IMG/VR virus record: IMGVR_UViG_3300033144_004293
Location: 1-25,539 of that record
Length of the DNA: 25,539 nt
Direction: 5' to 3' (one strand)
Origin: a virus
Made by a program: the position numbers and the translations under genes. This document shows positions 8,717 to 25,539 of the stretch, in pieces; within the stretch, counting starts at the first letter, position 1; each line of letters begins with the position of its first letter. Below the pieces are notes generated by a model. That model was not told the origin of the DNA and ran no database searches. It saw only the letters and a list, made by a program, of their open reading frames with translations.

Positions 8717-8745
8717 GGACTGCTTATAAAAAGTAAGTGCCTTTT

Positions 8746-9057
8746 ATGTTAGATGAAATAAAACAATTTGATAAAACAATAATAAAATTAAGCCGAGCAT
8801 ATAAAATAAAGCCCCTTGAACCTTGCGATATTCAGCAGGAATTAAGGATAGCCCTATGGTTAAACAGGGCTAAGTATAATAAAGACAAAGGAAGTTATAA
8901 AAGCTGGGCTTACATGGTATGCAGAAACAAGTTAAAAGATTTATATAAGCATTATAATCGTCAAAAAAGAGACATATTTAAAGAAATAAGCTTAGATGCC
9001 TTAATGAATAAGGGTTTTGATGTAGGGGTTAAGAGTGATTTTGACATAAGGACTTGA
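8746..9057 (+). CDS. Small sigma-70 region-2-like protein, candidate late-gene regulator
   Basis: The stretch DIQQELRIALWLNRAKYNKDKGSYKSWAYMVCRNKLKDLYK carries the sigma region 2 pattern (DIxQE...AL..A...Y...KG.F..WA....RN...D). Here it is split for reading: DIQQELRIALW, then YNKDKGSYKSW, then CRNKLKDLYK. Region 4 (-35 recognition) is absent in this 104-residue product, so it resembles the compact sigma-like activators phages place just before terminase genes. It would bind RNA polymerase core and redirect it to late promoters. ATG 8746 is preferred; GTG 8737 is an alternative three codons earlier. Followed by a structured element. Confidence 0.7.
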   Translation: MLDEIKQFDKTIIKLSRAYKIKPLEPCDIQQELRIALWLNRAKYNKDKGSYKSWAYMVCRNKLKDLYKHYNRQKRDIFKEISLDALMNKGFDVGVKSDFDIRT

Positions 9058-9090
9058 CTTTTAAAATCGTTTGTCGTTATCTATAGTAGA

Positions 9091-9157
9091 GGGGCAAAAT
9101 TCCAGCTTAACCGACTCGGCTAGAGTAAATTATGAAGCTGTTTAACTATCCCCTCAT
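9091..9157. terminator. Multi-stem element between convergent genes, probable bidirectional terminator
   Basis: GAGGGG (9091-9096) pairs with CCCCTC (9152-9157), CAGCTT (9105-9110) with AAGCTG (9136-9141), and inside them ACTC-GGCTA-GAGT. GTTTTTATT follows on the + side after about 10 bases. It lies between the + sigma-like gene and the end of a minus-strand gene, as a shared terminator should. It shares CCAGCT...GAGTAAAT with the structure at 4124-4184. Confidence 0.5.
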
Positions 9158-9169
9158 TTCGCTTAGTTT

Positions 9170-9328
9170 TTATTGATATAAAGAGAAAGCAAAGATTAAC
9201 ATAGTTATTGATATAACAAGCATTACTGCTAACATTACTTGTGTTAGTATATCAACAACCATTTCTTTTATCTTTTCTCTTTTCTTTCTTCTTATCCGCA
9301 TTTTACGAGCATATAAAGTATAATTCAT
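9170..9328 (-). CDS. Small single-pass membrane protein, 52 aa
   Basis: On the minus strand, the ATG at 9328 lies behind AATATAAAAAT, the same start style as the + strand genes. A very basic N-terminus (KMRIRRKKREKIKEM) precedes one hydrophobic helix VMLAVMLVISITMLIFAF, giving an N-in anchor by the positive-inside rule. An in-frame TTG at 9352 is less likely. Together with the next gene it forms the only minus-strand unit of the window. Function unknown. Confidence 0.55.
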   Translation of the reverse strand: MNYTLYARKMRIRRKKREKIKEMVVDILTQVMLAVMLVISITMLIFAFSLYQ

Positions 9329-9467
9329 ATTTTTATATTCCCGCCCCGCCAAGTAAAAGACATAATATATTATTTAATTCTCAATTCGGCAGGGCAGGTT
9401 CAATTAGTTTCTCATTATTGCCCACTTTCGCTCCTTAAAAAATGAGCAATATCAGAAGCCAATTATG

Positions 9468-9680
9468 CTACCATCTTATGATATTATATTTCCACGGACT
9501 ATGATTGAAAGACTTATCATCCAATAATCTATCTATCACCACATCTTTATTTTTATCATCCTTATAAACTTTATGAATTCTATCTTCTTGCCGTTCTGTT
9601 CTAAATTTAGATAAAGCAGATGAAAACATAACTCCATTTCTTTTTTGCTCTTCTGTTAATTTTTTAAATACTTTTTTCAT
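9468..9680 (-). CDS. Small charged protein on the minus strand, 70 aa
   Basis: ATG at 9680 behind ATAAAGTT, with a consensus-like minus-strand promoter at 9750-9722. The product is hydrophilic: a basic N-terminal helix (KKVFKKLTEEQKRNG), a DRIHKVYKDDKNKDVVIDR centre and a SFNHSPWKYNIIRW end. It may be a small regulator read away from the late genes. Family not recognised. The 9353-9467 gap to the following minus gene holds only GC-rich patches and no ORF. Confidence 0.6.
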   Translation of the reverse strand: MKKVFKKLTEEQKRNGVMFSSALSKFRTERQEDRIHKVYKDDKNKDVVIDRLLDDKSFNHSPWKYNIIRW

Positions 9681-9721
9681 AACTTTATATTATATTATTA
9701 ACTTCGACCTTTACTATCTCT

Positions 9722-9750
9722 ATTATTTCATAAATTAACATGCTTGTCAA
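9722..9750 (-). promoter_or_regulatory. Minus-strand sigma-70-type promoter
   Basis: Read on the minus strand: TTGACA (9750-9745), a 17-base spacer, and AATAAT (9727-9722), five of six at the -10. Well placed for the gene starting at 9680. Confidence 0.6.
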
Positions 9751-9771
9751 TAGGCAAAAAACCCTTATAAA
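9744..9771 (+). promoter_or_regulatory. Candidate divergent plus-strand promoter
   Basis: TTGTCA (9744-9749), a 16-base spacer, TATAAA (9766-9771). Its -35 overlaps that of the minus-strand promoter, forming a divergent control region for the genes at 9680 and 9854. TTGACT at 9774 has no suitable -10. Confidence 0.4.
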
Positions 9772-9832
9772 CATTGACTAAATTGCCCTGTGGATAAAAA
9801 ACAAGCAAAAATCAAAAACCAATTATAACAAA

Positions 9833-9846
9833 AACTAACGCATTAG
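9833..9846 (+). repeat. Leader motif AACTAACGCATTAG, copy 2
   Basis: Exact repeat of 2777-2790, again just ahead of an ATG (9854) and a few bases past a TATAAC -10-like box (9824-9829). Supports a shared regulatory role. Confidence 0.5.
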
Positions 9847-9853
9847 ATTACAT

Positions 9854-10021
9854 ATGTCATCATCAAATTTAAACATACCATTAAACACCGAAAAATATGC
9901 AATCGGTTATGAGAGGATATTCGGCAACAAGTCCAAGTCCAGAAGCAAGTTAAAAAGCAAGTCCAAAAAGAACATAAAAGATAATAAACCAGCTAAGAAA
10001 GAAACTAAAAGGGATAAATAA
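9854..10021 (+). CDS. Basic 55-aa protein with Lys/Ser-rich tail
   Basis: A short ordered start (NIPLNTEKYAIGYERIFG) precedes a tail almost entirely of Lys, Ser and Arg (NKSKSRSKLKSKSKKN). It lies where a small terminase gene might be expected but has no helix-turn-helix and is far too short. DNA binding by the tail is plausible. Start style and leader motif support expression. Confidence 0.55.
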   Translation: MSSSNLNIPLNTEKYAIGYERIFGNKSKSRSKLKSKSKKNIKDNKPAKKETKRDK

Positions 10022-10289
10022 AGGTATTATAAAGGGGCATAAAAGGTATAATAGCATAACTAATAGAATTAAACGGCTTAGAAGGCAATATACGAGCCCT
10101 TATTATTAGAAAATCCCGAGAAAGCCCGTAAATATACGCCGTAGGCCAAGATATAGAGTAGATAGTAGTATAGTAATAGACCTTAATATAGTAAGATATA
10201 GCAATGGATAAGGGGCATTTGATTATACTATATAGGCAAACACTACTAAATATAACCCATTATATACCCAAGAATATCTAAAATATAAC

Positions 10290-10357
10290 CCCATTTATTA
10301 GAAAATAGACCAATAAATCGCATAATATAGCCCATTTAATAGAAAAGAGACTAAAAA
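10290..10357. repeat. Tandem-like degenerate repeat (about 26 bp, period 41)
   Basis: CCCATTTATTAGAAAATAGA at 10290 and CCCATTTAATAGAAAAGAGA at 10331 differ at two positions over 20 bases. A weaker copy (CCCTTATTATTAGAAAAT) starts at 10097. The pattern is iteron-like. Confidence 0.5.
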
Positions 10358-10399
10358 ACCATCAAAACTGACACTCTAAGACCAATAAACATAGGGGTC

Positions 10400-10430
10400 A
10401 GTACTCTATTTACCGAGGAGTACTAAATAG
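10400..10430. repeat. Overlapping inverted repeats
   Basis: AGTACTC (10400-10406) pairs with GAGTACT (10418-10424), and CTATTT (10405-10410) pairs with AAATAG (10425-10430). The two pairings interleave and could form either a cruciform or a pseudoknot in RNA. A dyad operator is an alternative. Confidence 0.5.
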
Positions 10431-10436
10431 GTATAA

Positions 10437-10464
10437 ACTTCGATTATTGTCTATTCTACGAAGT
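10437..10464. repeat. Inverted repeat ACTTCG/CGAAGT
   Basis: Six perfect base pairs around a 16-base loop, 6 bp after the preceding dyad. Short, so only suggestive. Confidence 0.3.
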
Positions 10465-10566
10465 ATATAAAACAAGGACATAGATAGATATAAGACATTA
10501 TAAGAGCAACCCCACCCCTCCGATTGTGAATGGGATAGTAAATATATAGGTACCATACAGAATTTT

Positions 10567-10827
10567 ATGAAAAAGACAAGATTACATATTAATAAACTCA
10601 AGATAGGAGGCTTTGATGTAGAGATTAGATATGTTAAGGATTTGCCTGATGATGGTAATCTATGTGGCGAAAATACTATTCTAATAGATGCTAATTTAAG
10701 TCCTAATGAAAAGGATTTAACCCTTATTCACGAGATATTACATAAAATTAACCCTGCGATGGAGGAAAGGGAGGTAGAATACCTTTCCAGAGCCCTTCAT
10801 CAAATATATAAAGATGCCCAGAGCTAA
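10567..10827 (+). CDS. Minimal zinc-metallopeptidase-like protein (HExxH)
   Basis: The 86-residue product has LIHEILH (HExxH) followed by NPAMEEREVEYLSRALHQI, where Glu in VEYLS is placed as the third zinc ligand, a pattern frequent in tiny phage proteins related to SprT/ImmA-type gluzincins. The upstream half has a VDLPxGxxxGE-like KDLPDDGNLCGENTI strand pair. It may process a phage or host protein, or be a degenerate fold used for binding. It opens the head operon and overlaps terL by 14 bases. Confidence 0.75.
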   Translation: MKKTRLHINKLKIGGFDVEIRYVKDLPDDGNLCGENTILIDANLSPNEKDLTLIHEILHKINPAMEEREVEYLSRALHQIYKDAQS

Positions 10828-15247: not shown

Positions 15248-16159
15248 ATGGCAGAAATATTAAACAGTTATTTAGACACAACAAGAAAGCCTGATGTATT
15301 GAGTTTAGTTGAAATTCTTACTGCTAAGGAAAATTGGTTTCTTACCAACCTTGGAAAGAATATCGCTAAAGAAACAACTCATCAGACAATGACCGACACG
15401 CTTAGAACTGCTGCAAGTGCTGCTGTTACTGAAAGTGCTGACTATACTAATTTAGCAAGAACCACTCCTACGTTAGTTCCTAACGTTGTAGAGGTAATCG
15501 CTATTCCTTTTAGAGTCACCAAAACACAGCAACAGGTTGCACATTACCACGAACAGAATGAGCTTAGTAGACAAACTACTAAAGCTTTAGCTGATTGGGG
15601 AAACGCCGCAGAATTTGATTTGGTTCGTTCAACACTCGTTTCTGGAGCATCTGGAACAGCCCCAAAGATGAATGGTATAATTAGAGGGATTTCAAAATCC
15701 ACTACCTATACTCTTCAAACTTCTGGAACTACTTTCAGTGCATCTATTTTACGAGGATTGATGAAAGACCAATGGGATAATTCTAATGGTGATGTTGCTA
15801 CTGACATTTTTGTTGGTTCATACTTATCAAATGTTATTGATGAGTTCACTAACAAATCTTATACCGTTATTGACGGCTCAAACGAGAAATCTATTGTTCA
15901 CGCAGTAGACGTATTTGAGACAGGTCTTGGTAAAGTTAGAAAACACAACCACAGATATATCCAATCAAGTGATGCAAATGGTAGAATTCTTGGTGTAAGA
16001 CCAGAGAAGTTAAGAATCGCTTACTTACAAAAACCATTTATTGATACTGGTTTAGCAAGAAGTGGTGATTATGACTCAAGAGCAATAGTTGGAAAACTTA
16101 CTCTTGAAACCATAAACAAAGATTCTAACTTTTTCGCTGATGGTTATAATATAGGTTAA
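15248..16159 (+). CDS. Major capsid protein, SU10/DUF5309 type (HK97 fold)
   Basis: At 303 residues the product shows the family layout: an N-terminal arm, then VEVIAIPFRVTKTQQQVAHYHEQNELSRQTTKALADW with the conserved R-Q-x-x-K-A-L helix (read in parts), a long helix with LVRSTLVSG, a Thr/Ser-rich E-loop-like region TTYTLQTSGTTF, and a Leu/Arg-rich C-terminal strand LRIAYLQKPF. It assembles into the icosahedral shell. Position after the scaffold is diagnostic. Followed by a strong hairpin/pseudoknot, consistent with high expression followed by controlled read-through. Confidence 0.88.
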   Translation: MAEILNSYLDTTRKPDVLSLVEILTAKENWFLTNLGKNIAKETTHQTMTDTLRTAASAAVTESADYTNLARTTPTLVPNVVEVIAIPFRVTKTQQQVAHYHEQNELSRQTTKALADWGNAAEFDLVRSTLVSGASGTAPKMNGIIRGISKSTTYTLQTSGTTFSASILRGLMKDQWDNSNGDVATDIFVGSYLSNVIDEFTNKSYTVIDGSNEKSIVHAVDVFETGLGKVRKHNHRYIQSSDANGRILGVRPEKLRIAYLQKPFIDTGLARSGDYDSRAIVGKLTLETINKDSNFFADGYNIG

Positions 16160-16227: not shown

Positions 16228-16518
16228 ATGGAAAATATACAAATAAGACAGCAATTCATTATGGATGCTGTTAAAAGGTTCATTAAAAATCATCCGACAG
16301 AATATAAAGCGGTTTGTGATTCTGTTAAAAGATTAAAACTACATAAAGATAAGTTTGGCAGAATGGATGGAGAAGAATTTTCCCGAATGACATTAAGAAT
16401 ACCAGAAGGATTATTTAAGGTATTAGATTATTCTTTAGATAATCCAAGATTTTTAGAGGCAGACATAGAAAGTAATTGGTTTAAAAAAACCTTCCCTATG
16501 TTTAGGGTTGGTAAATAA
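16228..16518 (+). CDS. Hypothetical protein, 96 aa, first gene after the capsid
   Basis: A basic helical protein with MDAVKRFIKNHPTEYK, a FGRMDGEEFSRMTLRIPEG segment and an acidic C-terminal helix LEADIESNWFKKTF. The RIPEGLFKVLDYSL stretch has the look of a small DNA- or protein-binding fold. It has one of the few Shine-Dalgarno sites in the window, and that site lies in the pseudoknot. No family recognised. Confidence 0.65.
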   Translation: MENIQIRQQFIMDAVKRFIKNHPTEYKAVCDSVKRLKLHKDKFGRMDGEEFSRMTLRIPEGLFKVLDYSLDNPRFLEADIESNWFKKTFPMFRVGK

Positions 16519-16522
16519 ATAT

Positions 16523-19384
16523 ATGAAAATATCACTTTGTATTATTGCTAAAGCAGATTATAAAGAAGCCAAACTACTTGATAGATGCTTAGAATCTATT
16601 TCTAAATATGTTGATGAGATTTGTATTACCATTACAGGTAAAAACAATGAAGTAGAAAAGGTGGCTAAAAAATATGATGCCGAAATATCTTATTTTAAAT
16701 GGGTAAATGATTTTGCTAAGGCACGAAACTTTAATTTTTCACGAGCAACAGGAGAGTGGATATTATGGTTAGATGCTGATGATATAGTTGAGGGTGGACA
16801 ATATCTTGAAAAGATGACTGTCCTAATGGATAAAGAAGGAGTAGATACGGGTATAGCCGAATACTTATATGATTTTGACCAGTATGAACAATGCACAGTT
16901 AGGCATAGAAAAACCCGCCTTGTTAAAAATGATGGCTGCGTTAAATGGATTGGAAAACTCCACGAAGATTTAGTAGAACAAAGAAATATTAAAGCATATT
17001 TAATGGAAAACTTTAATATTATTCATAAAAGAACAGATGAAAGAAAAGTAGAAGCAGGTAAAAGAAATCTTGAAATCGCATTAGAACAATTAGATGATGA
17101 CCCAAAAACAATTTGGGATGTGGCTAATGCTTATTTACAACTAAACGACTTTTTAGAAGCAATTAGTTATTATTATAAATTTATTCCTGTTTCTGGTTCA
17201 GACGAGGAGAAATTCCTTGCTTGGCACAGAATGGCAGGAGCATTATTAGAATTAAAGCAATATGATAGAGCAATAAGTGCTGGATTAGAGGCACTTAAAT
17301 TAAGACCTTGGTATCCAGACCCATATCTTATTTTAGGAGATATATATTATAAAAAAGGAAATAGAAAAAATGCTAAAGAGTTTTTAGTTCAAGGGTTATC
17401 AAAGGAAGTTCCCAAAGATACAGCAATAGTATGGAATCCAAGAGATTATGACTTTAATCCTCTGATAACTTTATCAAATGTTTATTTTGAACTTAATCAG
17501 CCAGAGAATGCCAAAAAGTGTTTAATGGAATGCCTTAAAATCTATCCAAAACACAAAGGGGTTAAAAATATGATAGAAGTGTTAGACAAGGAAATTATTA
17601 ACCTTCAAAAGATAGATGACATTTGTGAGAAAATTAAAAAGGCAAAAACAAAAGAAGATATTAAAAAGTTAATAGATTCAGCCCCAGATGAATTAAGGTC
17701 TCACCCAAAGTTAGTATACTTAAGAAATCTACATTTTACTAAAAAGGAAAGTTCAGGTAAGGACTTGGCAATTTATTGCTACTTTACAGAAGAACCATTT
17801 GACCCTGATATTATACAAAAACAAGGAAGAGGGGGTTCAGAAGAAGCAGTTTATCATATGTCAGAACAATTATCCGATTTAGGTTGGAATGTCACGGTCT
17901 ATGCTAATTGTGGTTATAAAGAAAGAAAGTTTGGTAAAGTATGGTGGAAACCATTTTGGTCGTTTAATCCAAGAAATAAACAAGATGTGTTAATTGCTTG
18001 GAGAAATCCTGCTTTATTTGAAATTAAAGAAGTAAATGCCACTAAATCTTATGTCTGGTTACACGATATAATGAAACCTCGTGAGTTTACGGCTCGTAGA
18101 TTAAACAAAATAGATAAAATATTACCCCTATCTCAATGGCAGAGAGATTTATTCCCCAATATAGATGATGACAAGTTTATGATAACATCTAACGGGTTAG
18201 ACATTAAAAGAAAAAATATAAAGCGAAATCCAAATAGATTAATTTGGAGTAGTAGTTATGACCGAGGATTAGAAACATTATTAAAACTTTTTCCAGTAGT
18301 TAAAAGGGAAGTGCCAGAAGCAGAATTACATATATTCTATGGTTGGAATTTATGGGATGAATTATACCAAAATGATAAACCAATGATGGAATTAAAAAAG
18401 AAGATAAATGAAATGATGAAACAGCCAGGAGTTTATCATCACGGCAGAGTATCCCAAGAACAGATAACAGAAGAATACCAGAAATCAAGTATATGGGCTT
18501 ACCCTACAGAGTTTGGTGAAATAAGTTGTATTACAGCAATGAAATGTCAGGCACTTGGAACTATACCAATAACTACCAATGTTGCTGCATTAGATGAAAC
18601 CGTGCAATTTGGGTTAAAGGTTAAAAGTGAAGAGATTTATTCTGATATAGATGCTCAAGAAGAGTGGGTTCAAGGAGTAATAAATGTCCTTAAAAACCCA
18701 CCAACAGAAAAGGAAAGACAAGAAATGATGAACTGGGCAGAAAAAGAGTTCTCTTGGAAAAAAGTGGCTCTCCAATGGGATAAAGAGTTTAAGTCTGGTC
18801 AAAGAGGAGAAGATATTGAAGTAGTTGAAATGGATAGACTTAAATGGATTAGAGGTCATTGTCTACCAGAAGAAAAGATAGTAGATATAGGAGGAAATCA
18901 AGGTCATACATTTAAGGGTTGGAAAAATGCGACAACCGTAGATATAGATTTATATGATATTCCAAACTTTGTTCAAGCTAATGCTGAGGATTTACCATTT
19001 GAAGATAACTCGTTTGATACTGCGATTCTTGCAGAAGTATTAGAACACATAGATAATCCTGTCAAGGCAATGAAAGAAGCCAAGAGAGTTGCTAAAAAAG
19101 TAATCATCACAGTTCCAAATGAATATGAGTGGAAAGATGGATTAGGTGCATTTATAAAGCCAGAAGATGCAGCTAAAGAACAGGGATTAACCGTTGAAGA
19201 GATGGCAAAAAGAGATAATCCTGCTAAAAAGCATTATAAAGACAATTACAAACATATATATCATCAAAGATATTACACAAAAAAGATGTTAGAAGAACAC
19301 TTACAAAAAGCCGAAATTAAAAATTATAAAATAGCGAAACTATACACAGAAGGATTTGCTTTCTGGACAGTAGTTTGCAAATAA
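16523..19384 (+). CDS. Multidomain glycosyltransferase: GT2 + TPR + GT4-like + SAM methyltransferase
   Basis: A 953-residue fusion. Residues 1-180 are a GT-A fold glycosyltransferase of GT2 type (KISLCIIAK start, KARNFNFS, metal/nucleotide site DADD at 84-87). Residues about 195-360 are tetratricopeptide-like helices (YLQLNDFLEAISYYYKF, YDRAISAGLEALKLRP). Residues about 413-760 are a GT-B, GT4-like transferase (GRGGSEEAVYHMSEQL, WSSSYDRGLETLL, GEISCITAMKCQALGT). Residues about 780-930 are a class I methyltransferase (VDIGGNQG, DLPFEDNSFDTAILAEVLEHID). Together it could build and cap a glycan chain. ATG 16523 is preferred to an in-frame TTG at 16508. Acceptor and sugar are unknown. Confidence 0.88.
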   Translation: MKISLCIIAKADYKEAKLLDRCLESISKYVDEICITITGKNNEVEKVAKKYDAEISYFKWVNDFAKARNFNFSRATGEWILWLDADDIVEGGQYLEKMTVLMDKEGVDTGIAEYLYDFDQYEQCTVRHRKTRLVKNDGCVKWIGKLHEDLVEQRNIKAYLMENFNIIHKRTDERKVEAGKRNLEIALEQLDDDPKTIWDVANAYLQLNDFLEAISYYYKFIPVSGSDEEKFLAWHRMAGALLELKQYDRAISAGLEALKLRPWYPDPYLILGDIYYKKGNRKNAKEFLVQGLSKEVPKDTAIVWNPRDYDFNPLITLSNVYFELNQPENAKKCLMECLKIYPKHKGVKNMIEVLDKEIINLQKIDDICEKIKKAKTKEDIKKLIDSAPDELRSHPKLVYLRNLHFTKKESSGKDLAIYCYFTEEPFDPDIIQKQGRGGSEEAVYHMSEQLSDLGWNVTVYANCGYKERKFGKVWWKPFWSFNPRNKQDVLIAWRNPALFEIKEVNATKSYVWLHDIMKPREFTARRLNKIDKILPLSQWQRDLFPNIDDDKFMITSNGLDIKRKNIKRNPNRLIWSSSYDRGLETLLKLFPVVKREVPEAELHIFYGWNLWDELYQNDKPMMELKKKINEMMKQPGVYHHGRVSQEQITEEYQKSSIWAYPTEFGEISCITAMKCQALGTIPITTNVAALDETVQFGLKVKSEEIYSDIDAQEEWVQGVINVLKNPPTEKERQEMMNWAEKEFSWKKVALQWDKEFKSGQRGEDIEVVEMDRLKWIRGHCLPEEKIVDIGGNQGHTFKGWKNATTVDIDLYDIPNFVQANAEDLPFEDNSFDTAILAEVLEHIDNPVKAMKEAKRVAKKVIITVPNEYEWKDGLGAFIKPEDAAKEQGLTVEEMAKRDNPAKKHYKDNYKHIYHQRYYTKKMLEEHLQKAEIKNYKIAKLYTEGFAFWTVVCK

Positions 19385-19385
19385 T

Positions 19386-19556
19386 ATGGAAGAAAAAATA
19401 TTAAAAGTTTTAAGAGAAGTATCTCAAGAGAGATTAGGTAGAGCAGTTCCAGAAGAAGAAGAAGCCAAAAGAATTGCCGAAGCATTAAATATTAAACCAA
19501 AGGTTGAAAAGGTTGTAAAACCAAAGAGAAAACTTTTTGGAAAGAAGAAAAAATAG
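19386..19556 (+). CDS. Small charged protein, 56 aa
   Basis: Acidic N-terminal half (KVLREVSQERLGRAVPEEEE) and Lys-rich C-terminal half (KPKRKLFGKKKK). Start is 1 base past the glycosyltransferase stop; its stop shares one base with the next GTG. The tight spacing suggests it is translated. A binding adaptor is the most one can say. Confidence 0.6.
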   Translation: MEEKILKVLREVSQERLGRAVPEEEEAKRIAEALNIKPKVEKVVKPKRKLFGKKKK

Positions 19557-20122
19557 TGAAAAGACGCTGGGTGAAAACTAAAGACATTATTCCTTTTGAC
19601 AATATGCATAGGGAAACGCCCAGCGGATTTGAAGTAGATAAAGAAAAAGACGGCAAATCAACCGAAGAACATAGACAAGGAATTGACTATATCAAAGATG
19701 TTATTAAAAATGGACAAAAGATATTCCCTATCCTCGTTTATGAAGAAGGAGAAGAATATCATAAATTAGATGGATTTAAGCGTTTAATGGCTCATAGGGA
19801 ATTGAATAAAAAAATCGTTGAATGTTTTATATGTGATAATCAAGATATGAGTGAAAGAAAGGTTTATCAGTTTATGGGACATCCAATGACTTGTGTTCAG
19901 GGAGGACAATCTTATATGGACTATCGCTTTCCATTATTTGAAGGAAAAGAGGGAGAAAATCCAGAAGACATTTATTTTCTTTATAATGGACAAGTAAGAA
20001 TAGAGGCAAGAGAAAACATACATTTACATTGGGGAGAAGCAGGTAGATATAGATTAGAGTTAGGATTAAGGGACTTTATGGAGTTGGCTAACTTATTTGA
20101 AAAATATGAGCAAAGTGATTAA
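19556..20122 (+). CDS. ParB/sulfiredoxin-fold domain protein
   Basis: Residues 1-95 match the ParB-like N-terminal fold: VKTKDIIPFDNM, then IDYIKDVIKNGQKIFPILVYEEGEE with YHKLDGFKRLMAH (72-80) in the position of the DGERR box. In phages this fold serves as NTP-binding regulators, kinases (free-serine kinase-like) or nucleases. The C-terminal third adds HLHWGEAGRYRLELGLRDF, which resembles the short protein encoded next. No HTH DNA-binding domain of true ParB is present, so partitioning is unlikely. Start GTG overlaps the preceding stop by one base. It may make or regulate a precursor for the glycosyltransferases. Confidence 0.72.
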   Translation: MKRRWVKTKDIIPFDNMHRETPSGFEVDKEKDGKSTEEHRQGIDYIKDVIKNGQKIFPILVYEEGEEYHKLDGFKRLMAHRELNKKIVECFICDNQDMSERKVYQFMGHPMTCVQGGQSYMDYRFPLFEGKEGENPEDIYFLYNGQVRIEARENIHLHWGEAGRYRLELGLRDFMELANLFEKYEQSD

Positions 20123-20324
20123 ATCATCTACGGCATTAATAAACGATATACCAGATAGACATTGTAATCGCCTTATTATAGAAAAAACCCCAGATGGATA
20201 CCATATTCATTTTAGAAACTTAAAAATTCAACTAAATGAAAGCGAATTTGCAGAGTGGAGAATGGCTTTTCAAATAGCCAAAGAGAAAATTATAAATGAG
20301 AAATTATTTCAAGGAGATATATGA
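20106..20324 (+). CDS. Small protein resembling the C-terminal domain of the ParB-like gene
   Basis: 72 residues with DRHCNRLIIEKTPDGYHIHF followed by RNLKIQLNESEFAEWRMAF. The HxH, basic-hydrophobic strand and E-F...F pattern parallels HLHW...YRLELGLRDFMELANLF at the end of the gene just upstream, so the two look like paralogous beta-alpha domains. It overlaps the upstream gene by 17 bases and the downstream GT by 4. It is probably a partner subunit. ATG 20106 is preferred over an in-frame upstream codon at 20097. Confidence 0.65.
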   Translation: MSKVIKSSTALINDIPDRHCNRLIIEKTPDGYHIHFRNLKIQLNESEFAEWRMAFQIAKEKIINEKLFQGDI

Positions 20325-21259
20325 AATTAAGTGTTATATGCGATTGGGAAGCACCATTAATCCAAACAATTACAAGGGGAGATGGATTTATAAAAGCATT
20401 GGAGATTCTAAAAAAAGAGTGGGATGTTAAACTTTACAGATTAGGAAAAGAGTGTTCTATTCCATTGCCAGTTCCAGTAATACAAAAACCAACTCCAGAA
20501 AGGATAGCCCAAGCAGTTTTAGCAGATAAACCAGATATTATTCTATTTTTTAGAGACTTTACATCAAAAACTACTCAATTTTTACAAGGGAAGGGAATAC
20601 CAATGGCAATTTGCTTAACTGGTGGAACATTTAGACAGAATATAGATGCTTATGATTTGGTATTTGTAGAAAGCAAGGTATATGAAGATGAGTTTAAGGC
20701 ATTAGGTAAGCGAGTTATTAGAGCATTTGGAATAGATACAGACCTTTTTAAACCAATAAAACAACCAAAGATATGGGATGCTATTTTTCCAGCAACATTT
20801 GCTAATTGGAAAAGACACTCTATATTTGCGGAAACAATGGGAAATAAGGGAGTGGCTTGTGGTTGGATGTATCCAGACCACGAACAAGAGAATTGGCAGA
20901 TATGCCAAGAGAAAGGAACAATGATTTTACCTCATTTATCTCATAAAGCAGTTGCTTATCTGATGAATGCCGCAAAGACCTGTGTAATCACCTCAGACAG
21001 CACAGGAGGCTCACAGAGAACAGTATTAGAGGCAATGGCGTGTAATATACCCGTGATAGTTGCAAGTGATAGCGACAAAACTACGGAGTATATAAGAGAT
21101 TGCGGAATTGGTGAAACAATCAACCCAGACCCTAACTCTATTAGAAAAGCAATAGAAAGATTAAAAGATAAAGAAGTAAATTCAAGAGAGTGGGTTATAA
21201 AAAACTATTCTGCCCAAGTATATGCCGATAAACTAAAACAAGGATTATTAAGTTTATGA
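20321..21259 (+). CDS. GT4-type glycosyltransferase (GT-B fold)
   Basis: 312 residues. The two-Rossmann-domain layout is seen from KPDIILFFRDF and DLVFVESKVYEDEF in the N-lobe, linker FGIDTDLFKP (136-145), and the C-lobe sugar-nucleotide site with SQRTVLEAMACNIPVIVAS (231-249), where Glu 237 is the usual phosphate/ribose contact, then GIGETINPD. Such enzymes transfer a sugar from a nucleotide donor with retention. The length is a little short for GT4 (usually 350-400), with the N-lobe reduced. Overlaps neighbours by 4 bases at both ends. Confidence 0.85.
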   Translation: MKLSVICDWEAPLIQTITRGDGFIKALEILKKEWDVKLYRLGKECSIPLPVPVIQKPTPERIAQAVLADKPDIILFFRDFTSKTTQFLQGKGIPMAICLTGGTFRQNIDAYDLVFVESKVYEDEFKALGKRVIRAFGIDTDLFKPIKQPKIWDAIFPATFANWKRHSIFAETMGNKGVACGWMYPDHEQENWQICQEKGTMILPHLSHKAVAYLMNAAKTCVITSDSTGGSQRTVLEAMACNIPVIVASDSDKTTEYIRDCGIGETINPDPNSIRKAIERLKDKEVNSREWVIKNYSAQVYADKLKQGLLSL

Positions 21260-21873
21260 AAGTATCAATTATAACGATGGCATATAACGGGTATGAGAGA
21301 TTTATTCCACAATATCTTAAATATGTTGCAAGATTAGAACCTAAACCCGAAGAAATTATTTTAGTTCTTTCAAAGGGAAGTATATTAAAAGGAATTCCTC
21401 AATGGATAAAGATTGTTGAATCAGAGGCAACAAATATGGGTGAATTTCTAAATGATGGTATTAAAAAGGCAACTGGTGATGTAATTTTATCTTTTCCCGT
21501 TGATGATGAGTTATTAAAAAATGCTATTAGAGAAATTCAGGCAATAAATGCTGATGTTATAACCCTTAAATATTATCTGAATGATAAAGTTTGCGATACT
21601 CCTAAAATGAAAAAAGAAAGAATTAAATATTGGAGAAAATATTATTTAGGAGCTTCTGGTTATCTTGCATTTAAAAAACAATATGTTGAAAACAATGATT
21701 TCTGGAAATATCCATTATTATTTAAAACTATTGCCGAAGGTAAAACTATTAAAAGCACTAAAAATCCTTGTGTAATATGGCATCAAAGAGGAGATGGTCA
21801 CGGTTCTGGTCAAAATTGTGCTAAGGCAACAAGGGAAATAGAGGAATATGCAAATAGATATTTATCAAAGTAG
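21256..21873 (+). CDS. GT2-type glycosyltransferase (GT-A fold)
   Basis: N-terminal VSIITMAYNGYERFIPQYL, the helix NDGIKKATGDVI, then FPVDDELLKN with the metal-binding DD at 83-84, and the acceptor region KYWRKYYLGASGYLAFKK ending WHQRGDGHGSG. This is the inverting GT2 pattern. It is 205 residues, so a core domain only, without a membrane segment. It overlaps the nitroreductase-like gene by 26 bases. Acceptor not known. Confidence 0.82.
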   Translation: MKVSIITMAYNGYERFIPQYLKYVARLEPKPEEIILVLSKGSILKGIPQWIKIVESEATNMGEFLNDGIKKATGDVILSFPVDDELLKNAIREIQAINADVITLKYYLNDKVCDTPKMKKERIKYWRKYYLGASGYLAFKKQYVENNDFWKYPLLFKTIAEGKTIKSTKNPCVIWHQRGDGHGSGQNCAKATREIEEYANRYLSK

Positions 21874-22444
21874 ATATTTAGAACATCAAGAAAGAAAGAA
21901 GAAGTTTCAGACAGAAATAAATAAAACAATATATTCCTTAAAGGGAAAAGACCTTGTATTTAGAGTTATTAAAAATAGAAGAAGTCAAAGAACATTTAAT
22001 AAAAAGCCAATTACCAAAACAGAAATCAATTTATTAATGGAAAGTGTTAGATTTGCACCATCTTCCTGTAATAGACAGGCAATTTATATCAAGATATTAG
22101 ATGAAATTGAGGATATATTAGTTGGTGGTAAGGGTTGGATAAATAACGGCAACAAGATATTCCTTATATTTGCTGATATGAAAGCATATAAATCACCCAA
22201 TGAAATCAGTTTTATGCCTTATTTAGATGCAGGAGTAGTTATAGAGAATATCTATTTAATGGCTGAAGTTTTAGGAATAGGAGTATGTTTTGTCAACCCA
22301 AACATAAGAGAAAAAATTAGGTTTAACAATTTATATAATAAAGAAAATAATAGGTTTTGTGGTGCTATCGTTATAGGACATTATAATAAAAAAGCAATTA
22401 AACCGCCGAAACATGAAGGTATCAGTAATTATTTTAACAATTAG
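21848..22444 (+). CDS. Nitroreductase-family flavoprotein
   Basis: KNRRSQRTFNKKPI at 42-55 and VRFAPSSCNRQAIY at 67-80 are the FMN-binding signatures of the nitroreductase superfamily. MPYLDAGVVIENIYLMAEVLGIGVCF (read in parts) is the dimer-forming helix, and GAIVIGHYN the last FMN-proximal strand. At 198 residues it is of normal family size. The family reduces nitro groups, quinones, flavins or carries out dehydrogenations. A phage copy inside a glycosylation cluster is unusual: it may modify a sugar, a lipid carrier or a small antimicrobial, or be captured host cargo. Starts within the preceding GT and ends within the next. Confidence 0.87.
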   Translation: MQIDIYQSRYLEHQERKKKFQTEINKTIYSLKGKDLVFRVIKNRRSQRTFNKKPITKTEINLLMESVRFAPSSCNRQAIYIKILDEIEDILVGGKGWINNGNKIFLIFADMKAYKSPNEISFMPYLDAGVVIENIYLMAEVLGIGVCFVNPNIREKIRFNNLYNKENNRFCGAIVIGHYNKKAIKPPKHEGISNYFNN

Positions 22445-23150
22445 AGGGAGAGAAAAGATGTTACAAGAAGCATTCCGTTCTATTTGTAAGCAAACGGTAA
22501 AACCTTATGAAGTTATAGTTGTATTTTCAGAAGAAAACCTAACAAGAAAATGGGCAATAGAAAATGAAGCAATTGCTAAAAGTGATGGAGATGCTTTTAT
22601 TCCATTCTGTGATGACGATATTTTAGACCCTACTTATATTGAGAAAACTACTCGTAGAATGAAAGAAACAAAAGCAGATATTATAGGAACATATTTAGAA
22701 AACTTTGGAAATGAAACAGGAATACACGGATTTAGTGAAATACCACCAGGTACTTCACTTATTAGAAAGAGTATTTGGGAAAAAGTTGGTGGATATGATG
22801 AAACAATGACATTAGGTGGAGATGTAGATTTTTTTAAGATGTGTAGGGAAAAAAGAGCAAAAATAGAAATATTGCAAGAACCATTATTAAAATATAGAAG
22901 ACATTTACATAATTGGGGAAATACCAAAGAATTAAAAGGGTCATATAAGACAATGAAAGAAAAAGATGATAAAAGGAAAATGTCATCTATTGCAGAAAAG
23001 GGATTTAGTAATGGTTATAGATGTCTTGTGTGTGGAAAAAAGATTCACAATTCGGCTGGTTCAATAGACCAAGACCATCAACTCTTTTGTAGTCCAGAGT
23101 GTATGAGTAAATATGATAATTCTTTAAAATGTATTCCAAATCAAAAATAG
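22413..23150 (+). CDS. GT2 glycosyltransferase with C-terminal zinc-finger extension
   Basis: Residues 1-190 are GT2 (VSVIILTIRGREKMLQEAF, DGDAFIPFCDDDILDPTYI with the metal motif DDD at 67-69, and GGYDETMTLGGDVDFF for the acceptor-side Asp). The last 45 residues add C204LVC207...C226SPEC230, a zinc knuckle with MYM/TRASH-like spacing that is not part of the GT2 fold. Frame is continuous, so it is a fusion, not a separate gene. Starts 32 bases before the nitroreductase stop. The zinc module may anchor the enzyme to a protein acceptor or partner. Confidence 0.82.
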   Translation: MKVSVIILTIRGREKMLQEAFRSICKQTVKPYEVIVVFSEENLTRKWAIENEAIAKSDGDAFIPFCDDDILDPTYIEKTTRRMKETKADIIGTYLENFGNETGIHGFSEIPPGTSLIRKSIWEKVGGYDETMTLGGDVDFFKMCREKRAKIEILQEPLLKYRRHLHNWGNTKELKGSYKTMKEKDDKRKMSSIAEKGFSNGYRCLVCGKKIHNSAGSIDQDHQLFCSPECMSKYDNSLKCIPNQK

Positions 23151-23569
23151 TAGTAAGTGGTGGGTTTGACCCTGTCCATATTGGACATATCAGATTATTT
23201 CAAGAAGCAAAAAAGCTGGGATACTTAATAGTGATATTAAACAGTGATGAATTTCTTATTAGAAAAAAAGGTCAACCATTTATGCCCTTCCAAGAAAGGA
23301 AAAAGATTTTAGAAAGTATTAAATATATAGATAAAGTTGTTGAATGTATAGATAAAGACCAAACAGTTTGTAAAACCCTTAAAAAAATAAAACCAGATAT
23401 ATTTGCCAACGGAGGAGATAGAACTTCAAGTAATATTCCCGAAATAGAAGTCTGTGAAAAATTAGGTATTAAAATGATATTCGGAGTTGGAGGTCAAAAA
23501 ATAAGGTCAAGTAGTCAATTTATAAAAAATGCCATTAGTTTCCATAATAACACCATCAATTCGTTGTAA
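23129..23569 (+). CDS. Nucleotidylyltransferase (glycerol-phosphate / heptose-phosphate type)
   Basis: GGFDPVHIGHIRLFQEA carries the HIGH box (17-20) of the cytidylyltransferase-like superfamily. ILNSDEFL, FMPFQERKKIL and ANGGDR are the other conserved blocks, and FGVGGQKIRSSSQF resembles the end of the HldE/RfaE C-terminal and related enzymes. It joins a sugar- or polyol-phosphate to a nucleotide (CDP- or ADP-activated) and releases pyrophosphate. It would supply an activated donor to the adjacent transferases. 146 residues, complete. Overlaps both neighbours by more than 20 bases. Confidence 0.87.
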   Translation: MYSKSKIVVSGGFDPVHIGHIRLFQEAKKLGYLIVILNSDEFLIRKKGQPFMPFQERKKILESIKYIDKVVECIDKDQTVCKTLKKIKPDIFANGGDRTSSNIPEIEVCEKLGIKMIFGVGGQKIRSSSQFIKNAISFHNNTINSL

Positions 23570-24167
23570 AGGATTGGAAATAGTCCAGAAATGTCTATCT
23601 GAGCAAACCATTACCGATTATGAGTGGTTAGTTGAGATAGGTATTCCACCTAAAAATGATTTATCTGCTGCTCTTAACCGAATGCTTAAAAGGGCTAAAG
23701 GCAAGTGGGTAGTGATGTTACAGGATTATATCAAAATAGAACCTAACGGGTTAGAACAATTCTTAAAAGTAGCAGATGAAAAGAAACTAATAACGGGTGC
23801 TGGGGGAAAAACAACTGATTGGGAACATATAAAATGGGATTGGAGAGAAGTAGGAGAGTTTAGGCAGATAGAATCTCGCCAATGGGAAGGAGATTGGGCA
23901 ATCGCACCATTACAAGCATTTAAAGAAATTGGTGGATATGACGAGGAATATGATAAACACTGGTCATTTGATAATGTAGAGTTGGCTCATAGATTAAATA
24001 AAATAGGATATACCTTTTGGGTATTACCAACCAATAAATCAATTCATTATGACCACGATAAATTTACAAAACACCCATTTAGAGAAAGATGGTCTCCCGA
24101 TTTTCACAATAATAGAATGAGGGAAATTGATATGGAAATTAGGAAAATTAAATTAAATTATTTATAA
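23529..24167 (+). CDS. GT2/GT7-like glycosyltransferase
   Basis: N-terminal PLVSIITPSIRCKGLEIVQKCL is the GT2 start. KRAKGKWVVMLQDYIKIEPN replaces the usual DxD with QDY. The C-terminal part EGDWAIAPLQAFKEIGGYDE with HWSFDNVELAHRL resembles the GT7/galactosyltransferase C-terminal metal and acceptor helix, with WSFDNVE as the acidic site. The loss of the first Asp makes metal coordination uncertain. It is the last gene of the cassette; a 4-bp gap separates it from the structural adaptor gene. Confidence 0.78.
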   Translation: MPLVSIITPSIRCKGLEIVQKCLSEQTITDYEWLVEIGIPPKNDLSAALNRMLKRAKGKWVVMLQDYIKIEPNGLEQFLKVADEKKLITGAGGKTTDWEHIKWDWREVGEFRQIESRQWEGDWAIAPLQAFKEIGGYDEEYDKHWSFDNVELAHRLNKIGYTFWVLPTNKSIHYDHDKFTKHPFRERWSPDFHNNRMREIDMEIRKIKLNYL

Positions 24168-24171
24168 ATAT

Positions 24172-24871
24172 ATGATATTAAGTGCATTAGATGACATCCT
24201 TAACAGGATAACAAATACAGATACTACATCTTATTCAGATGATGATAAACACGTTGACTTAACCAGAGCCACTCATTTAATGGTGTCTGAAATCATTAAA
24301 TCGCAAGGTTCTTGGGATTTTCAAGGTGAAATAGCAACTGCTGATTTAGTTGCTAATCAAAGGGAATACATATTTCCTACTGATATTTTAAAGATTAAAA
24401 AGATTGAACTTAAAATTGATGGTTCTAATTGGACAAAAGCCCAAATTATAGATGTATCTGAGATAGGAACACCAGTTGGTTCAGAAAGCGATATAACTAA
24501 TAACTTTGATAGCACGCAACCAAAAGTGGAACTATTTGATACGGGTTATAGGATTTATTCAGGAACTATTAGTGCAGTTACTAAAGGAATTAAGATATGG
24601 TATTCAGAAGAAAATGTGGGAGTTGATGATAGTGGTGCTGATATAACTTCCTTTTCCACTGATACTGATAAACCAAACATAAATGAAGCATTTCAGATGG
24701 GATTAGTTTATGGAGCAGGTAAAATATATGCCCAGCAATATGAATTATGGGAAAAAGTAAAGGCATTTAATATAGAGTCTGAAACTTATATTAGAAGAGC
24801 AAAGGAATGGTATGGAAATAGAGCACCAGATACTCCAATAACTGTCGCAGGGGCAAGTAATTTTTCAAATT

Positions 24872-24879
<8 letters not shown>
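24172..24879 (+). CDS. Head-tail adaptor protein, SU10-like
   Basis: 235 residues with the pattern of the SU10/P22 gp4-like adaptor group: an N-terminal helix ALDDILNRITN, a second helix HVDLTRATHLMVSEIIK, the QGSWDF strand, a REYIFPTDILKIKKIELK beta-meander (read in parts), IKIWYSEENV, and a C-terminal helix NIESETYIRRAKEW. It would form the ring under the portal that joins tail to head. Its place after capsid genes (across the cassette) supports this. Overlaps the next ORF by 8 bases. Confidence 0.75.

Positions 24880-25539
<660 letters not shown>

Follow-up and report, generated by a model that had tools for sequence, protein, structure and literature searches.

The question raised by this locus is what a phage does with a set of glycosyltransferase (GT) genes that lies between its capsid gene and its head-tail adaptor gene. 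The locus is in a 25,539-nucleotide stretch of DNA (IMG/VR virus record IMGVR_UViG_3300033144_004293; hereafter, the window), a 25.5-kb fragment of a virus with a normal head operon in the order TerL, portal, scaffold-like gene, major capsid protein (MCP) gene, a gene for a 96-amino-acid (96-aa) protein, glycosylation genes, SU10-type adaptor, and collagen-like fiber. A first-pass annotation had described a cassette, inserted in the virion-structure operon, that would build a methyl-capped glycan on a virion protein or a host receptor. All of the parts that it named are present, on the plus strand and mostly overlapping (Table 1). Its count of five GT-type proteins holds, with the qualification that one of them, a GT2-TPR-GT4-methyltransferase fusion, counts double, which gives six phage-encoded GT domains. 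The explanation that we favor, with fair confidence, is that a soluble pathway glycosylates a head protein during assembly in a podovirus-like family, with lineage-specific extension and methyl capping of the glycan.

Relatives of the window were gathered three ways, by the MCP alone, by the adaptor, and by the GT fusion, and duplicate contigs were removed. All 47 of the distinct contigs that were recruited with the MCP and had at least 4 kb downstream carried GT2-TPR-GT4 on the same strand, 0.3 to 2.1 kb behind the MCP gene. The linkage was near-absolute in a larger set as well, a GT gene being found 297 to 2,133 bp after the MCP gene in 88 of 91 contigs with at least 1.5 kb downstream. One exception is Pseudomonas phage Bjorn, in which only small open reading frames (ORFs) follow the capsid gene and a GT gene is absent in the stretch read. 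Another is L023, in which GroEL and GroES genes occupy the gap behind the MCP gene and the contig then ends; the third, MW202497, is considered below. L137 also lacks a GT gene, with GroEL in the gap and the contig end soon after. GroEL occupies the MCP-GT gap in 13 contigs that do bear the GT gene, and the gap exceeds 1.5 kb in 13 contigs. The GenBank podoviruses MW202524 and MW202718 (42.6 kb, circular) have the same gene order.

Distances between MCPs were strongly correlated with distances between GT fusions (Mantel r of 0.81, compared with 0.34 for the best of 999 permutations; n = 79). Together with the MCP linkage, this correlation indicates that the fusion is an old core gene of the head operon that was co-inherited with the MCP, contrary to the description of the cassette as inserted. 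The accompanying remark that capsid and adaptor genes are usually close together fits phage Bjorn, but the slot between them is occupied in every informative contig of the window's own family. Homologs were not scattered in unrelated places: the GT gene stays behind the MCP gene in all 47 MCP-recruited contigs and in the prophage described below, which supports the earlier proposal of a dedicated, virion-linked glycosylation pathway.

Alignment to relatives suggests that the fusion likely starts at ATG 16523, giving a product of 953 aa. With residues counted from the TTG at 16508, its domains are GT2 (approximately residues 6 to 180; Pfam E-value of 5e-15), TPR (197 to 350; 9e-17), GT4 (420 to 762; 2e-9), and a SAM methyltransferase (780 to 957; 4e-13). 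The acidic motif of the GT2 domain (D89/D91/D92) and the GT4 motifs (GGSEE at 442 to 446 and E671) are invariant in 35 sequences, and both active sites are therefore under selection. The methyltransferase domain can occur apart from the rest: the window and L019 to L021 have it fused, L025 and L026 encode it as a separate ORF, and in most other relatives it is not part of the fusion.

The fusion has the layout of GmaR/SunS-like protein glycosyltransferases, a GT-A domain with a DxD motif followed by TPR helices. The closest phmmer match of the GT2-TPR part was GmaR (2e-18), followed by SunS (3e-14), and the score against the SunS family TIGR04195 was 51 bits versus a cutoff of 350. Structure prediction, one of the checks that had been proposed, gave a confident AlphaFold model of the fusion (pLDDT of 89). 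The top Foldseek matches of the model in the PDB were SunS, ThuS, SPINDLY, and OGT, with low global TM-scores, the domains being matched in turn and the TPR helices contributing much. Because GmaR, SunS, ThuS, and OGT-type enzymes all act on proteins or peptides, the acceptor is likely to be a protein, which these matches favor without proving. Of the two targets offered by the first-pass annotation, a virion protein fits better than a host receptor.

Each of these enzymes resembles the fusion in part. GmaR is the flagellin O-GlcNAc transferase of Listeria, in which the GT2 domain glycosylates flagellin, a self-assembling structural protein, and the TPR region is proposed to recognize it (PMC9638930). 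Like the fusion, GmaR has GT2 followed by TPR, but an antirepressor domain stands in place of the GT4 and methyltransferase domains. The peptide S-glycosyltransferases SunS and ThuS, which are the top relatives in fold and the next best in sequence, combine GT2 with helical repeats but lack GT4 and act on bacteriocin peptides. OGT and SPINDLY (GT41) join a TPR superhelix to a GT-B catalytic domain and have a protein acceptor, whereas the fusion belongs to a different GT family, has a low overall TM-score to them, and possesses an additional GT-A domain.

We propose that a cytosolic GT2-TPR-GT4 enzyme is produced from the head operon along with the capsid. Its TPR superhelix would recognize a head protein, the MCP being the likeliest glycan acceptor, after which the GT-A domain would add the first sugar and the GT-B domain a further sugar. 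The variable genes farther along the slot (those for GT4, the GT2s, the nucleotidylyltransferase, the methyltransferase, and perhaps the nitroreductase) would provide an uncommon donor, extend the glycan chain, and methyl-cap it. The expected outcome is a variable sugar coat on the phage particle, with a possible role in shielding, adsorption, or stability. The family-wide position beside the capsid gene suggests that these viruses build such a coat on their own particle.

Several points weigh against this explanation. The glycan, its acceptor, the sugar, and the order of transfer are all predicted; what the sequences show is the gene content, the domain architecture, the conserved catalytic motifs, the linkage to the capsid gene, the co-inheritance, and a lack of predicted transmembrane segments in the GTs of the window. 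Linkage to the MCP would also be expected from a stable position in a late operon without a functional tie to the capsid. MW202497 has its GT2-TPR and GT genes in the TerL-portal interval instead of behind the MCP gene. TPR-bearing folds dominate the structural matches, and the OGT-type matches therefore overstate the similarity. The nitroreductase is without an obvious role.

The contents of the slot bear on how much of the cassette belongs to the pathway. Across 47 contigs that cover the whole MCP-GT-adaptor interval, the slot is 3.5 to 12 kb long (8.0 kb in the window). Further GTs are present in 41 of these slots (GT2 in 40, GT4 in 24), and in 34 a GT2 is the last gene, directly ahead of the adaptor. 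The 216 slot genes form 82 sequence clusters, mostly singletons. Pfam searches of 138 nonredundant slot proteins returned mainly GT2, GT4, and methyltransferases, and then LicD, FkbM, NDP-sugar dehydratase/epimerase, DegT aminotransferase, and sulfotransferase families. This pattern suggests fast-changing glycan structures built on a constant core.

It is possible, although we consider it doubtful, that action on the virion is confined to the GT2-TPR-GT4 fusion and the adaptor-proximal GT2 and that the ParB-fold pair, the nitroreductase, and other genes are unrelated cargo of a hypervariable locus. The range of slot lengths and the preponderance of singleton clusters are consistent with such a mixed content, as is the placement of the ParB-fold gene and its 75-aa partner, which four relatives (L075, L076, L078, and L079) carry upstream of the head genes and apart from the GTs. 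For that reason, the pair are probably passengers, and we remove the ParB-fold protein from the pathway in which the first-pass annotation had placed it. However, most of the recognizable slot genes are glycan related, and the pairing of nitroreductase with GT2 recurs in two other independent slots (L057/L058 and L092). The nitroreductase gene is directly ahead of a related GT2 gene in the window, L057, and L092, and the three proteins have many invariant residues in common. On account of this recurrence and these shared residues, we retain the nitroreductase as a probable pathway member, as had been proposed. A mixed slot is, in any case, compatible with the core of the virion glycosylation explanation.

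An unlikely alternative is that the cassette modifies a surface glycan of the host, for receptor masking or superinfection exclusion, and that its late-operon location reflects history. GTs of other phages, the pelagimyophages, have been interpreted in this way (PMC7029224); one relative of the window is a temperate prophage; and nucleotidylyltransferase, LicD, and DegT families also occur in surface-polysaccharide pathways. However, no membrane GT, flippase, polymerase, or undecaprenyl-phosphate transferase was found in the window, none of its cassette proteins has a predicted transmembrane segment, and such segments are likely in only 9 of 208 slot ORFs. The cassette therefore differs from Gtr-type O-antigen conversion systems, which comprise a membrane flippase and a membrane GT. 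In addition, the GT gene adjoins the MCP gene in every informative contig, and the GT2-TPR part resembles protein-modifying enzymes, both of which fit glycosylation of a head protein better.

Decoration of phage DNA through hypermodified bases, a use of GTs in some other phages, is highly improbable: DNA-glycosylating phage GTs do exist (Pyle et al. 2024, as cited in PMC12619734), and outside the cassette the window has genes for a DNA methylase and a 5'-nucleotidase-like protein, but the GTs are linked to the MCP and not to replication genes, and no thymidylate-synthase/hydroxymethylase family member (PF00303) was found in 24 phage records including the window fragment, several of which may be incomplete (a control search matched in 9 of 14 genomes). 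In the search for TET/JBP, no control gave a match.

Glycosylation of phage virions is already known; the new variant proposed here centers on a bifunctional enzyme and is tied to the capsid gene throughout a family. In mycobacteriophages, phage-encoded GTs modify proteins of the capsid and the tail tube (PMC12363180, PMC12619734). The systems of Che8 (gp110), Corndog (gp38), and Myrna resemble the one proposed for the window in that phage-encoded GTs act on virion proteins, but the hosts are unrelated and the acceptor is proven there, whereas in the window the evidence is genomic. Neither of these two papers describes a fusion of GT2, TPR, and GT4 or a location behind the MCP gene that a whole family shares. 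Pelagimyophages and cyanomyophages also carry GTs in a hypervariable region near structural genes; unlike the window phage, they are myoviruses with the GTs in a host recognition region, and no constant GT behind the MCP is described (PMC7029224). The Manatee Spring podoviruses (MW202524, MW202718, and MW202743) have a similar layout, with MCP, small ORF, GT2-TPR-GT4 (35% identity), additional GT and methyltransferase genes, and then tail genes, but their methyltransferase is not fused, and they were deposited as annotated sequence without interpretation. In the open literature, our coverage of which was incomplete, we found neither this gene order nor a GT2-TPR-GT4 enzyme with a constant link to the capsid gene described. 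Phage protein glycosylation is known from few isolates, and it is predicted here to be nearly universal in a family of uncultured phages, with the sequence evidence naming an initiating enzyme and a specific candidate acceptor. The two-domain enzyme is also a possible tool for protein glycosylation.

A lead to the hosts of the family came from cellular genomes, in which the GT fusion is nearly absent. The only match in 84,980 species genomes was on a 4.4-kb contig in a metagenome-assembled genome (MAG) of Candidatus Taylorbacteria. Because this contig also carries a homolog of the small MCP-adjacent gene, it is itself phage-like, and a cellular source of the fusion was rejected. A second match was found among 380 genomes of the phylum of that MAG, in genome G113. 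Its 67.8-kb contig C1 has TerL-size and portal-size ORFs, MCP, the small gene, GT2-TPR-GT4, GT4, a DegT aminotransferase, two GT2s, and the adaptor, followed by an integrase and, from approximately 36 kb, cellular genes (glutamyl-tRNA synthetase, queuosine synthesis, MgsA, and a T4SS pilin). The glutamyl-tRNA synthetase shares 67% identity with its counterpart in another genome of the same phylum. The region G113:C1:1-36000 (L161-L162) is best read as a prophage of this phage family in a Patescibacteria contig. This is a host lead for the family, in a group whose phages are poorly known, and the host of the window phage is a separate matter. More speculatively, capsid glycosylation might be an obligatory part of head assembly throughout this podovirus-like, at least partly Patescibacteria-infecting family, with the bifunctional GT2-TPR-GT4 enzyme building a methylated, lineage-variable coat; we regard this broader reading as tentative.

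Table 1. Genes of the glycosylation cassette and its borders in the window, with support from Pfam and PHROG searches
Feature	Coordinates	Strand	Support and remarks
Major capsid protein (MCP)	15248..16159	+	phrog_1328, E 1e-34; constant upstream neighbor of GT fusion; likeliest acceptor
96-aa helical small protein, MCP-GT interval	16228..16518	+	Conserved; possible head/accessory protein
Fusion GT2-TPR-GT4-SAM methyltransferase	16523..19384 (ORF from TTG 16508)	+	Pfam; first cassette gene
56-aa Lys-rich ORF	19386..19556	+	ORF prediction only
ParB-fold-like protein, probable passenger	19556..20122	+	Weak PHROG matches, 3e-5; no Pfam match
75-aa partner of ParB-fold gene	20097..20324	+	After ParB-fold gene in all five related loci
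GT4 glycosyltransferase	20321..21259	+	PF00534, E 2e-9
GT2 glycosyltransferase	21256..21873	+	PF00535, E 1e-6
FMN-type nitroreductase-family protein	21848..22444	+	PF00881, E 5e-19
GT2 with Cys-rich zinc-ribbon-like tail	22413..23150	+	PF00535, E 8e-10
Nucleotidylyltransferase (HldE-C/TagD/Pcyt2-like), putative donor activation	23129..23569	+	PF01467, E 1.5e-17
GT2 abutting adaptor	23529..24167	+	Weak PF00535, E 6e-4, below Pfam cutoff
SU10-type head-tail adaptor, right border of slot	24172..24879	+	PF24175, E 0.0013, below Pfam cutoff; position in 47 contigs
Collagen-like fiber, G-x-T repeats (G-P-T/G-Y-T)	25078..25539	+	PF01391, E 8e-13; cut by window end

The nucleotidylyltransferase is the only gene of a donor pathway in the cassette, which is therefore not the complete set that had been claimed. 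The enzyme has a conserved HxGH motif, and TagD and Pcyt2 are among its PDB relatives. Its scores were 79 bits against the HldE C-terminal family (rfaE_dom_II, TIGR02199; cutoff of 181.5) and 68 bits against TagD, the glycerol-3-phosphate cytidylyltransferase (cutoff of 165). By these comparisons, the protein is intermediate among HldE-C, TagD, and ethanolamine-phosphate cytidylyltransferase, with scores below every family-specific curated cutoff.

Among the border genes, the 96-aa gene has a homolog in the MCP-GT interval of 93 of 95 contigs, and none was found in phage Bjorn. The AlphaFold model of the 96-aa protein had a pLDDT of 78.6, and a fold search with it gave no usable match. The assignment of the adaptor as SU10-like is supported by position in addition to the sub-cutoff match. 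The collagen-like fiber was considered as a common acceptor, by analogy with the BclA proteins of spores, and rejected, as it is absent from all 27 relatives in which the sequence continues for at least 3 kb past the adaptor; it may be an extra, lineage-specific acceptor in the window phage.

Examples of the phage GroEL genes are L023:10051-12052, where a GroES-like ORF is also present, and L032:4885-6453; besides the 13 contigs with GroEL directly behind the capsid gene, further contigs have it elsewhere. The MCP genes of many relatives are interrupted at several different positions by inserts of 0.4 to 1.1 kb, most with HNH or LAGLIDADG ORFs (L020:8835-10486, and also L019, L021, L023, L024, L027, L039, L088, L093, L097, and L099). 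The L020 insert holds a group I intron (RF00028, 60 bits), and L027 gave a weak match only; the MCP gene of the window is intact. Ahead of the late genes, the window encodes a 106-aa sigma-70 region-2-like protein (8737-9057), possibly a phage late-gene regulator. After it comes a stretch with little coding sequence (9057-10567), in which the GC skew reverses locally and regulatory sequence might lie.

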